Positions 3,099 through 35,080 of a stretch of 35,342 nucleotides of DNA are shown here, one piece after another. How positions within the stretch are numbered: the stretch's first letter is position 1; every line of letters begins with the position of its first letter. The stretch covers positions 1 to 35,342 of the forward strand of contig JAFGEX010000252.1 in assembly GCA_016931355.1 (NCBI GenBank), written 5' to 3'. Source of the DNA: a bacterium (GTDB lineage Bacteria > Zhuqueibacterota > QNDG01 > JABMRT01). The notes below the pieces were generated by a model that saw nothing but the letters and a program-made list of their open reading frames with translations, searched no databases and was not told where the DNA came from. The position numbers and the translations under genes are program-made.

Positions 3099-3127
3099 GC
3101 GGCAGCAAGCTGCCGCACTCCAAAATC
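3099..3127. repeat. Short palindromic repeat, copy 1 (GCGGCAGC-AA-GCTGCCGC-ACTCCAAAATC)
   Basis: Matches 35052-35080 over 29 nt except for the 2-nt loop (AA here, TT there). Confidence 0.7.
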
Positions 3128-6196: not shown

Positions 6197-6311
6197 GCGA
6201 ATCTGACGGCGTGTGCCTTCCCTGCGGCTTGTTGCGGGATAAGCGGGCGAATAAAATTTCACATTCCCGACAGATCGAAGACTCTTCGCAAGTTTTCGTG
6301 AAGTGCTTCAA
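6197..6311 (+). repeat. Dispersed palindromic element, copy F (degenerate)
   Basis: GCGAATCTGACGGCG...CCTGCGGCTTGTTGCGGGATAAGCGGGCGAATAAAA...CCCGACAGATCGAAGAC...GCTTCAA aligns along its length with copies at 30925 and 33821. Confidence 0.7.
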
Positions 6312-9208: not shown

Positions 9209-9290
9209 TTTTCGAATCCGTCTGCGGGCGCATTCACTGCCGGTTGCATCCGGGGGGGCAGGCGGCCGGCATACTCCTTCACAATTCAGG

Positions 9291-12200
9291 ATGAAGATTG
9301 CTCCCGCGGGCTTCCCGGGAAGGTTCATCCCGGCCTTTTCGCTTCTCTTGCTGGCTGCGTTTGCGCCGGCTGCAGGGTCCGCCCCTCCGGATGTCCGGCT
9401 GGAGTCGTCGTCTGCGAAAGGCCTTGTCGCAGTTGTTTCAATCCCTTCCCCGGATTTGGACTCGCTGCGCATCCAAGGCCGCATGTATCAGTCCGTGCGG
9501 CTTCCGGGATTTGAAAACGCAGGGGATCCGGGGGATCCGCAATTGCCCATGACTGTTCTGGTGGTCGGACTCCCTCCGGAGGGCGATGTTCAGGTACGCG
9601 TGCAGGCCGGCTCTTTTACCGAGAGAGAGGGCGTGAGGCTTGTCCCATGCCCGGCATATGACAACCGTGATCTGGGATGGGAACAGAAATTCGAGGAAGG
9701 GCCTGTTTACCGCAGCAGTGATTTCTGGCCGGATGCGGTTTATACGGCCGGACAGCCTGAATGGTACGGCAGACAGCGTATCCTCCGGATTGCCTTATTT
9801 CCGGTTCAGGTCCGGCCCTCCACCGGAACCCTGCGCATGTATGAAAAGATGCGCGTGGAGGTTGTGTTCGAAAAGGCGGGCAGGACCGTTCCATCTGCAG
9901 GCAAGGCTGCGGAATCCGCTGCTGAACCGTCCTTCCTTCTCAATCCGGAACAGGCGAGACATTGGGTGCTGCAGACCGGATCTGTTTTACGGAAACCTTC
10001 TTTCTCCTTTGCCGCGGGGGAGTGGTTCCGTATTTCCGTTTCCGAGGAGGATGTCTATCAGATCACGGGTGCCTTCTTAAAGAATAAAGGCGTGGATCTG
10101 TCCTCCATTGTGCCTTCGACCCTGAAAATCTACAACAACGGGGGACGGCAGCTTCCGGTCGACGCCTCGGCGGCCAGGCCGGATTCACTCATTCAGAATC
10201 CCGTTTTGGTCAGCGGGATCGAGGACGGCCGTTTCGATGAGTCCGACTACCTTCTTTTTTACGGCAGGGGGGTCGCGGGTTGGGATTTCGACGCATCGGC
10301 CCGAAGATGGATGCACAACAACAACATATTCACCGACCGAAATGTTTACTGGCTGGTGTTCAACGACGGCATCCCCGCCGTGAACATGCCTCAAAAGCCC
10401 TTCAGCAGCCAAAACGGGAGTACGGTCACACGGTTCAGGGACCGCATTTTTTTCGAACAGGACAACATCAATCCCTACAGCGGAGGGATTCACTGGTACG
10501 GACATCAGTTTCTTTCCCCGGCCTCGTCCAGGAATTTTGAAGTCCTGATGCCGGATCCGGTGCCGGGCGAATCCATGGACCTCCGGATCCGGACCAAATA
10601 CGGGGACAACACGTCCAGGCAGTTTACGTTCAATGTGAGCCTGAACGGGGTTCCATGGACCGCATTCAGCCTGTCTGCCTCCCTGCCCAAGGAGGATTCC
10701 CGATCCGCCCCCGCTGACCCGGCGAATGGAATCAATACCATTCAATTCGAATACCGCAGCACCGTATCGCCGTCCAGTGCCTACCTGGACTGGTTCGAAG
10801 TGTCGTATGTCCGGGAATTGAGGCTGTCGGGCGGGAAACTGGCCTTTTATTCCCCGGATGAGCCGGGAAATTATTTTTATCCGGTGGGGGATATGGCGGC
10901 CGATGCTGTGATACTGGACGTCACGGATCCACTTCAGGCGGCCAGGCTTGTGCCCGGCGTTTCCGGGGGCGCAAACGGATTTTTTGATGCGGTCGGGGAA
11001 AGCCCCCGGCGCTATCTCGCTGTGAATCCATCCCGCCTGAGGCAGCCGGAAAACCTTGAGATCAAGGAGCAATGGGCCGATCTCAGGATATCCGGCCCGC
11101 CGGCTGATCTGATCATCCTGACCCACCGGGATTTTTCTTCACAGGCAGAGAGACTGGAGGACCACCGGGAAACCCGGGACAGCCTTTCCGTTTGGGTGGT
11201 GGATGTCCAGGATGTATTCGACGAATTCGGGTGGGGTATACCGGATCCGGCCGCCATACGCAATTTCATGCAATATGCCTTCTGGAATTGGAATCCGCCC
11301 CCCGGGTATCTCCTGCTGTTCGGGGACGGGGATTACGACTACAGAAACCGTTTGTCGGACCGGGACAAGAACTGGATTCCCCCGTTCGAGCAGAACGGAT
11401 ACAACGAACAGGATGGATCGACCCGGGCCATGGATGACTTTTACGGGTATCTGACGGGTTCGGACAGGGTTCTGGATGTTGCGATCGGCCGGCTGCCCGT
11501 ACAGTCCGCATCCGATGCCGAAGCGGTCGTTGATAAGATCATCGCGTATGATACGAACGATGATTTCGGCGACTGGCGGGCGCATGCAACGGTCATCGGC
11601 GACGATGAGATCGGCGAGCCGAATTCCAGGAATGAAACCGTCCATATCGAGGACGCAGAAACCATCGCCGAAGAGTACATCCCCCCGTACCTGAATGTCC
11701 GGAAAATCTATCTGACGGAATACCCGATTGTTTATGCGGCCGACGGCCGCCGCAAGCCTGCGGCAACGGAAGACCTGCTGGACCAGATCAACAGGGGGAC
11801 ACTCATCGTCGATTTCCTGGGTCACGGACATGAGGCGATCTGGGCGCACGAGGCCCTGTTTCTGCTGTCGCGCGACATGGACAGGCTGGAAAACACGGCG
11901 CGCTGGCCGCTGTTCTATGCCGCCACATGCGAATTCGGATTGTACGACGATTTTTTGAAGCAGAGCTTTTCCGAGGTCCTCGTGAACACGCAGGAAAGGG
12001 GCGGCATCGCCGTCATTTCGGCCTCGAGGCGCTGCAGCCCCACTCCCAATGCGGCGCTGAACCGGTCCTTTCTGAGGAGCCTGTTCGCAGGTCCGCGGCC
12101 GACCGAACGTATCGGCGAAGCCCTGAGAAAGGCCAAGGTCCTGCGGATGGAATCCTATCCCAACAACGAGCAGTACCACCTGTTCGGAGATCCGTCCATG

Positions 12201-13755: not shown

Positions 13756-14385
13756 ATGATGCGGGATGATTCTTTTTTCACCCTTCAAGACGATGTGACA
13801 TTCGAAATGAAGGTGCGGGATTCCCGGTTCATCGGTCATGCGGCGCCCATCGGTGATCTGCAGGAATCAGAATCGGTCATCCGCAAGATCCGGAAGGAAC
13901 ATCACGATGCAGCGCATCATGCCTTTGCATACCGGCTGGGTACGGGCGCGGACTCTCGGTACAGGTCCAGCGACGCCGGCGAACCGTCCGGAACCGCAGG
14001 CAAACCCATACTCGATGCAATGGACGGCCGCAGCCTGACGGATGTGGTCTGTGTCGTCACACGGTATTTCGGAGGGACCAAGCTGGGCACAGGCGGACTG
14101 ATCCGGGCATACGGCGGCTGTGCGGCAGGGACACTCGACCGCGGGACAACCGTCGTCAAATACAGGACCGGCCGGTTTCGCATCGCCTTCGGCTACGAGT
14201 GGACCGGTGCCGTCATGCAGGTGATCAGGCGGTTCGAATCGGAGATTTTGAATACGGCCTACGGCGGCCGTACGGAAATGAGCCTGCGTATCCGTCTCTC
14301 GCGCCTGGAACCGTTTCAACAGGCCCTGCGCGACGGCACATCCGGGCAGGTCCGCATGATGGGGGAGGACAAGGATGATCTTTAG
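13756..14385 (+). CDS. YigZ/IMPACT family protein
   Basis: DSRFIGHAAPI, HHAFAYRLG, SSDAGEPSGTAGKPILDAM, VVTRYFGGTKLGTGGLIRAYG. ATG 13756 preferred over 13636. Confidence 0.88.
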   Translation: MMRDDSFFTLQDDVTFEMKVRDSRFIGHAAPIGDLQESESVIRKIRKEHHDAAHHAFAYRLGTGADSRYRSSDAGEPSGTAGKPILDAMDGRSLTDVVCVVTRYFGGTKLGTGGLIRAYGGCAAGTLDRGTTVVKYRTGRFRIAFGYEWTGAVMQVIRRFESEILNTAYGGRTEMSLRIRLSRLEPFQQALRDGTSGQVRMMGEDKDDL

Positions 14386-15592
14386 GCCGGTCCTGCTCGT
14401 CACGGCTCTCTTGTTGTCCGCCTTTTTTTCCGGATGCGAGACGGCCATGCTCGGGGCGCGCCGGATCAAGCTGGAAATCTGGGCCAAGCACGGCATGCGC
14501 AGGGCCAAGGATGCCCTTGCCATGGTGGAGAATCCCGAGCGGACCCTCGTGACGCTGCTGGTGGGCACCAACATCGCCAATGTGCTTTTCTCTTCACTCA
14601 TGGCCATGATGTTCACAGCCTCCTGGAGCGGCTGGACGATCACGGCCGTCAGCTCGCTGGCCGTGCTGATATTGGGCGAAATCATTCCCAAATCCCTGGC
14701 CACGGACAGGGCTACGTTGTGGACCGCCCGGGCCTCCTACGTTCTGCGTTTCTTTTACGCTCTCTTTTACCCTCTTGTCAGGGTTTCCATGGAATTTTCC
14801 CGTTTGATGATGAGGCGCATCGGGCTGCGGTACCTGGAACTGCAGCGCTTCCTCAGCAGGCGGGAGATCGAAGCCCTGGTGCGGGAGGGCCATAAATACG
14901 GCGTGGTGAACTATAGACAGCGGGAGCTCATTCTCAACTTCATCCTCAAGGGAAATCAGAAGGTCAGGGATCTCATGATCCCGCGTACGGAAATCACGGC
15001 CGTCAGGGCGAACACCCCTGTTTCCGATATTGTTTCCATACTCATCAAGACGGGTTATTCGCGTCTCCCCGTTTTCGGGAAGGATCTGGACGACATACGG
15101 GGATTCATCATGGGCAAGGACATCCTGGTGAAAAAACCCAGGCGGATCAGGAGCATCATCAGGGACATCCTGTTCGTCCCGGAATCCCGCGGTATTGCCA
15201 GTTTCCTCAAGGAAATGCAGGAGGCCGGCATCGGAGCCGCCATCGTTGTTGACGAGTACGGGGGCACGGCCGGCTTCGTGACCATCGAGGATATTGTGGA
15301 GGCTTTCTTCGGGGACATACAGGACGAACATGACGAGGTTGATAATCTGTTCCGGAAGGTGACTCCGAACCAGATAGACGTTCTGGCGCGCATCGAGATC
15401 CGCGAACTCAACGAACGTTTTCATCTCGGCCTGCCGGAGGGGGGGTATCAGACCCTGAGCGGTCTGATACAGGAAGAATTGGGGCATATCCCGAGACCGG
15501 GGGAAAAAATCGACCTGCCGGACTGCACGGTTGCCGTGCTGACGAGCACGCGAAAATCCGTTGGCTGGGTCCGTGTCAGCAGGAAAACCTGA
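14375..15592 (+). CDS. CNNM/CorC-type (DUF21 + CBS pair + CorC_HlyC) membrane protein
   Basis: SAFFSGCETAMLGARR, VGTNIANVLFSSL, GEIIPKSLA, RDLMIPRTEITAV, SRLPVFGKDLDDIRGFI, VVDEYGGTAGFVTIEDIVEAFFGDI; overlaps yigZ by 11 bp. Confidence 0.9.
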   Translation: MIFRPVLLVTALLLSAFFSGCETAMLGARRIKLEIWAKHGMRRAKDALAMVENPERTLVTLLVGTNIANVLFSSLMAMMFTASWSGWTITAVSSLAVLILGEIIPKSLATDRATLWTARASYVLRFFYALFYPLVRVSMEFSRLMMRRIGLRYLELQRFLSRREIEALVREGHKYGVVNYRQRELILNFILKGNQKVRDLMIPRTEITAVRANTPVSDIVSILIKTGYSRLPVFGKDLDDIRGFIMGKDILVKKPRRIRSIIRDILFVPESRGIASFLKEMQEAGIGAAIVVDEYGGTAGFVTIEDIVEAFFGDIQDEHDEVDNLFRKVTPNQIDVLARIEIRELNERFHLGLPEGGYQTLSGLIQEELGHIPRPGEKIDLPDCTVAVLTSTRKSVGWVRVSRKT

Positions 15593-15869: not shown

Positions 15870-15987
15870 TTGAAGCTCCCCGGCAGTGAGCTGCCGGGGG
15901 ATCTTTGATCTCCAAGGGAAAAAACATTTGGATTTGCCCGCTTGCCCCGAGGCTTGCCGCGGGGAGAGCGCTCGCTATCAGATTCAT
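15870..15987 (-). repeat. Dispersed palindromic element, copy A (reverse orientation)
   Basis: Its reverse complement ATGAATCTGATAGCGAGCGC...CCCGGCAGCTCACTGCCGGGGAGCTTCAA matches copy C (33821-33940) end to end. Confidence 0.9.
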
Positions 15988-24953: not shown

Positions 24954-25059
24954 ATGAATCTGTTGGCGCGCATATTCCCTGCGGCAAGCTGCAGTGTCGT
25001 TCAGCGAATCCAAAAGTTTTTTCCCCTGCACATCGAAGATCCCCCGCATAAAAAATGGC
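24954..25059 (+). repeat. Dispersed palindromic element, copy E (degenerate, terminal hairpin lost)
   Basis: ATGAATCTGTTGGCGCGCATATTCCCTGCGGCAAGC...CAGCGAATCCAAAAGTTTTTTCCCCTGCACATCGAAGATCCCCCG aligns with copies A-C up to the terminal hairpin; the trailing AAAATGGCG also follows copy B. Confidence 0.65.
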
Positions 25060-30924: not shown

Positions 30925-31043
30925 TTGAATTTGTCAGCGAGCGCATTCCCCTTAGGCTTGCCGCGGGGTAAGCGAATGAATCTAAAAGTCTTCTTCCCTA
31001 CAGATCGAAGATTTCCCGGCAGCTCAATGCCGGGGAGCTTCAA
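30925..31043 (+). repeat. Dispersed palindromic element, copy B
   Basis: TTGAATTTGTCAGCGAGCGCATTCCCCTTAGGCTTGCCGCGGGGTAAGCGAATGAAT...TTCCCTACAGATCGAAGATTTCCCGGCAGCTCAATGCCGGGGAGCTTCAA. Confidence 0.9.
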
Positions 31044-33820: not shown

Positions 33821-33940
33821 ATGAATCTGACAGCGAGCGCATTCTCCCTTAGGTTTGCCGCGGGGTAAGCGAGCGAATACAAATAAATTTTTCCCTACAG
33901 ATCGAAGATTCCCCGGCAGCTCACTGCCGGGGAGCTTCAA
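33821..33940 (+). repeat. Dispersed palindromic element, copy C
   Basis: ATGAATCTGACAGCGAGCGCATTCTCCCTTAGGTTTGCCGCGGGGTAAGCGAGCGAAT...TTCCCTACAGATCGAAGATTCCCCGGCAGCTCACTGCCGGGGAGCTTCAA. Confidence 0.92.
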
Positions 33941-35051: not shown

Positions 35052-35080
35052 GCGGCAGCTTGCTGCCGCACTCCAAAATC
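35052..35080. repeat. Short palindromic repeat, copy 2 (GCGGCAGC-TT-GCTGCCGC-ACTCCAAAATC)
   Basis: Same as 3099-3127 apart from the 2-nt loop. Confidence 0.7.

Follow-up and report, generated by a model that had tools for sequence, protein, structure and literature searches.

A high-copy bacterial repeat probably undergoes recurrent micro-inversion of its hairpin loops, by polymerase template switching. The two bases of the loop change as a unit, to their reverse complement, in both hairpins of the repeat and regardless of how closely the flanks of the copies are related; the evidence for this joint change is statistical and comes from paralogous copies. The result bears out the loop inversion between copies that a sequence-only reading of this DNA had proposed.

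Genome and repeat family

The window analyzed here (35,342 nt) is an entire contig of a 3.89-Mb draft genome in 412 contigs, which is 84% complete and comes from a relative of candidate phylum KSB1. The DnaN encoded in the window is 69% identical to the DnaN of a candidate-division KSB1 bin and to that of an unclassified bacterial bin. About 117 bp in length, the repeat starts with TGAATC, ends with CTTCAA, and contains two GC-rich hairpins with short loops (consensus TGAATCTGACAGCGAGCGCATT-CCCCGCGGCTTGCCGCGGGG-TAAGCGAGCGAATCC...CAGATCGAAGATT-CCCCGGCAGCTTGCTGCCGGGG-AGCTTCAA). Its core, CAGATCGAAGAT, has 364 matches in the genome (≤1 mismatch) vs 2 for a reversed control pattern. We gathered 337 copies from about 1.39 Mb sampled out of the 3.89 Mb, with at most two CTTG-type hairpins per copy. 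The contigs were sampled partly for presence of the core motif, and loop state played no part in the choice.

Folded as single-stranded DNA, the consensus scores well (z=-4.2) and copy A, described below, has z=-2.5; copy B, which has an asymmetric arm, folds no better than shuffles. An Rfam scan of the window at the curated threshold gave no match, and a tRNA scan of the window was empty. In some copies the region of the 5′ hairpin is expanded to two or three hairpins (e.g., CCCCGGGGCCTGCCCCGGGCTTTGGCCCGGGG; L058:9407-9548, L070:16616-16752, and L049:18946-19085 are among them).

No congeneric genome was found among the 38 relatives searched, the closest being from other genera. Two genomes from the same order but a different family (G004 and G009) also carry the repeat, and G002 and G007 have one partial match each. 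Some of the copies in G004 and G009 contain additional short insertions, within or beside the hairpins (L198, L201, and L195).

Copies in the window

Copy A (15870-15986, minus strand) matches across the whole profile in BLAST/nhmmer with E about 1e-30. It is located between a gene for a CNNM/CBS-domain transporter (14375-15592) and dnaN. Its outer end is 28 bp ahead of the dnaN start codon (16015), and the copy is probably within the dnaN leader or promoter region. Direct reading of its 5′ hairpin, CCCCGCGGCAAGCCTCGGGG in element orientation (15945-15964, minus strand), and comparison with the 337 copies identify CAAG, with a flipped AA center at 15954-15955. Copies B (30926-31043) and C (33822-33940), both on the plus strand, have the common TT orientation; the 5′ hairpin of B is CCCCTTAGGCTTGCCGCGGGG (30948-30968), with CTTG, and that of C is CCCTTAGGTTTGCCGCGGGG (33846-33865), with TTTG. 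Copy E (24955-25047, plus strand) is truncated at its 3′ end and has the 5′ hairpin CCCTGCGGCAAGCTGCAG, with CAAG and an AA center. Copy F (6199-6311, plus strand) is degenerate and has CCCTGCGGCTTGTTGCGGGA, with CTTG and a TT center. These five copies, with their collinear flanks, are present as the sequence-only reading had described them; a sixth, very degenerate copy (9214-9327, plus strand; nhmmer E=7e-6) was absent from it.

The 5′ hairpin is an almost perfect palindrome, and its orientation shows only at the two central bases and at occasional mismatches in the arms. The earlier description of the copy A loop as close to the reverse complement of the B and C loop is right as to the AA vs TT center and the collinear flanks, but it rests on a few bases of this near-palindrome. 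Reverse-complemented, the 20-mer of copy A is identical to the hairpin of L005 and L145 (CCCCGAGGCTTGCCGCGGGG), and its orientation can be read only from the central AA/TT and one mismatch, the T in GCCTCGGGG. L049 and L052, both unflipped, share this T, and copy A thus fits either reading of the tract that turned over. In copy A the 2-nt loop is flipped; turnover of the whole CCCC-to-GGGG segment is not demonstrated by this copy.

Coupled changes in the hairpin loops

Loop orientation was tabulated across the 337 copies, as had been suggested from the sequence. Across 302 aligned copies, the center of the 5′ loop is TT in most (217), followed by CT (30), AA (14), AT (5), and TA (3). Scored as purine (R) or pyrimidine (Y), columns 32-33 of this loop are YY in 257 copies, RR in 22, RY in 12, and YR in 11. 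Columns 98-99 of the 3′ loop are YY in 190, RR in 70, RY in 24, and YR in 11. Separate mutation of each loop base, which the expected counts assume, would give 3.7 double-purine copies at the 5′ loop (p=4.5e-17) and 25.8 at the 3′ loop (p=6e-35); these p-values overstate independence because the copies are kin, and the neighbor test described below serves as a guard. Among the adjacent column pairs tested along the element, those of the two loops come first and third for coupling. States of the 3′ loop include TT/AA (94/19), TC/GA (73/32), CC/GG (11/15), and CT/AG (12/4), and the mixed pairs that are not self-complementary (TG, CA, GT, and AC) come to 7 in total. The G009 genome has AA at one locus (L187) and TT at another (L183), with arms identical between both.

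If a relaxed loop simply accumulated point mutations, two independent pyrimidine-to-purine transversions would be needed to turn CTTG into CAAG, and the coupling would come from shared ancestry or from selection on loop stability. We regard this as unlikely. The loop is variable, with many further states in the family (CCTG, TTTG, ATTG, and CTCA), and coupling made by ancestry does exist in the family, at columns 63-64. However, the double changes are about 6-fold (5′) and 2.7-fold (3′) above expectation, and single-step intermediates at the 5′ loop are rarer than the double change. In co-directional contexts, with ORFs called crudely, loop orientation showed no association with the sense of transcription (Fisher P=1.0 and 0.13), which is evidence against selection in favor of a single RNA tetraloop. 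Single copies that differ by AA/TT alone may each reflect two close transversions, the tract being 2-8 nt.

Recurrence among copies

Shared ancestry of the coupled changes is also at odds with the flanks, by which the RR copies are unclustered. At the 5′ loop, the RR share among the five flank-nearest neighbors of RR copies is 0.057 vs 0.075 permuted (P=0.66), and at the 3′ loop it is 0.154 vs 0.228 (P=0.92). The control columns 63-64, second in rank for coupling, have a variant that clusters by flanks (0.30 vs 0.086, P=0.0025). There, AACAAATT replaces AATGTCTT (columns 59-66), a shared subfamily motif that is clustered by flank similarity. Because the flipped loops are not clustered by flanks while the control columns are, the loops appear to have inverted repeatedly and independently, and the flipped copies appear to form no subfamily. 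For nearly every flipped 5′ loop, the closest flank relative is unflipped. For example, L137:751-867 has CCCCGCGGCAAGCCGCGGGG (CAAG), and a neighbor with 2.8% flank difference has CCCCGCGGCTTGCCGCGGGG (CTTG) with the same arms. A search for duplicated unique flanks, dominated by tandem copies, gave no usable pair with both loop states at the same locus among the matches listed. Ancestral and derived states, and an origin in a single step, are presumed from paralogous copies.

Extent of the inverted tract

Some copies with a flipped loop have an asymmetric left arm that is still on the left: TTAGG in L011/L127 (CCCCTTAGGCAAGCCGCGGAG), ATTCGG in L060 (CCCCATTCGGCAAGCCGCGGGG), and TCAGG in L148:10153 (CCCCTCAGGCAAGCCGCGGGG). 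No fully turned arm was found among the copies examined, nor were outer flanks that had turned over completely (GCTTA...AATGC). Together with the ambiguous T of copy A, these unturned arms suggest that inversion took in just the 2-nt loop or, at most, the perfect 8-nt core GGCTTGCC (2-8 nt). The sequence-only reading had the whole segment flip between CCCC/GGGG arms, which the data do not support, since the three informative copies with flipped loops keep their arms. Of the mechanisms it had listed (recombination, template switching, or an enzyme), template switching fits and nothing indicates a dedicated enzyme. An enzyme-driven invertible switch, operated by a site-specific recombinase, would turn over the whole segment between the inverted arms and finds no support here: the arms are unflipped in 3/3 informative copies and no fully flipped arm was found.

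Proposed mechanism

In the proposed mechanism, DNA that becomes single-stranded, probably in replication (or in transposition, should the repeat be mobile), would fold into the hairpin. The polymerase would move to a new template, either the facing arm or the other strand, read through the loop, and return, turning the 2-nt loop into its own reverse complement. A switch placed further out would copy one arm onto the other. The outer 5+5 nt are perfectly complementary in 9/172 copies vs 4.6 expected (P=0.007), a modest excess; an example of such arm homogenization is GCATT...AATGC where other copies have GCATT...TAAGC. Template switching at short inverted repeats yields both arm homogenization and spacer inversion, and the yeast SPO75 gene has a recurrent, reversible AA/TT flip of a 2-bp spacer (PMC8604942). 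Loop inversions are also reported in rRNA, including bacterial rRNA (PMC8794818). Loop inversion with fixed arms and complementary outer arms have both been ascribed to template switching; from these we infer the mechanism, as we also infer the strand involved and the rate.

The window contains a second, unrelated hairpin repeat, GCGGCAGCNNGCTGCCGCACTCC (GCGGCAGC-NN-GCTGCCGCACTCCAAAATC), that has 17 matches in the genome (≤2 mismatches) and the loop AA in most of them. Its first copy (3099-3127, plus strand; GCGGCAGCAAGCTGCCGCACTCCAAAATC) has the common AA loop. The other copy (35052-35080, plus strand; GCGGCAGCTTGCTGCCGCACTCCAAAATC) has the inverted loop, TT, and is otherwise identical; within the window the TT loop occurs only at 35052. 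This AA/TT difference indicates that loop inversion probably extends beyond one element.

Mobile-element features

High copy number, hairpins, sharp ends, and head-to-tail arrangement are traits of REP/REPIN and IS200/IS605-type elements. The repeat resembles REP or IS200/IS605-type non-autonomous elements and is a candidate member of such a group. As judged from the boundary profile and the consensus DNA fold, its hairpins are subterminal and its ends fixed, and it lacks long terminal inverted repeats. Tandem head-to-tail copies with a 4-bp overlap occur, for example, at L026:2357-2583 and L023:1462-1617.

If the repeat is an element of this kind, its loops could invert in single-stranded transposition by a Y1 (HuH) transposase, not in chromosomal replication. 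We consider this improbable. The two subterminal hairpins are compatible with it, as are the right-end GAAG (before the hairpin) and CTTC (after it), which are able to pair in the consensus fold. So are the sharp boundaries (TGAATC on the left and CTTCAA(T) on the right), the high copy number, and the head-to-tail copy pairs, which have one exact 4-bp overlap in 35/60 close pairs. However, the genome, at 84% completeness, yielded a single Y1-transposase match, to a partial domain close to the beginning of a contig (L096:84-272), and no element copies were detected around the Y1 genes of relatives. Moreover, loop inversion requires no transposase, and the unrelated second hairpin repeat shows the same AA/TT difference. 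It is in our judgment quite improbable that the repeat is a mobile element transposing as a single strand and that successive transpositions incidentally invert its hairpin tips; if true, the orientation of the loops would be a record of how each copy had been replicated or transposed.

Hairpins are recognized trouble spots, and the genome is a draft of 412 contigs. An artefact of the library or the short-read metagenome assembly (fold-back reads) is nevertheless very improbable, as the pattern is seen again in a second genome, G009, and the inversion is so short that a majority consensus should call such sites correctly. An old split of the family into two subfamilies that differ in their flanks and have their hairpins in opposite orientations is also very improbable. 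Flank-defined subgroups exist (the columns 63-64 cluster), but in both hairpins the flipped loops are scattered, with unflipped copies as their closest kin by flank, and the neighbor test, which addresses the different-flank subfamilies that the sequence-only reading had set against inversion, revealed no clustering of flipped loops and so does not refute it.

Comparison with known systems

The loop flips attributed here to template switching are real, are seen again in a related genome, and probably belong to a known mutational process; new is the instance in an uncatalogued bacterial repeat. The copies suggest that 2-nt loops invert repeatedly while the arms stay unmoved. Hundreds of similar hairpins per genome represent a natural replicate experiment on template-switch mutation, and the hairpin tips of bacterial repeats are unsuitable as subfamily markers.

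Plastid genomes have minute inversions associated with hairpins, usually with longer loops. In PMC2903610 (an example being the trnH-psbA spacer), these are recurrent small inversions associated with palindromic sequences, as here; the plastid loci are compared between plants, whereas we compare copies of a bacterial repeat. The REP/REPIN and IS200/IS605-type non-autonomous elements (PMC3116915, PMC8266576, PMC6006769) are similar to the repeat in copy number, hairpins, sharp ends, and head-to-tail order. The repeat described here differs in its length of about 117 bp with two hairpins, its putative mobility, and in that no linked cognate Y1 transposase was found. Template switches in rRNA that invert only the loop (PNAS 2022, PMC8794818) include 69 loop inversions, mostly in four-nucleotide, partially self-complementary loops, with bacterial cases among them. 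Those genes are under RNA-level constraint, whereas ours is an interspersed repeat without a known RNA role. Spacer inversion and arm homogenization at short inverted repeats (Abraham and Hazkani-Covo 2021, PMC8604942) share with this repeat the short arms, the recurrent 2-bp AA/TT flip, and the homogenized arms; that work used orthologous yeast loci with ancestral reconstruction, whereas our reading of the process comes from paralogous bacterial copies.
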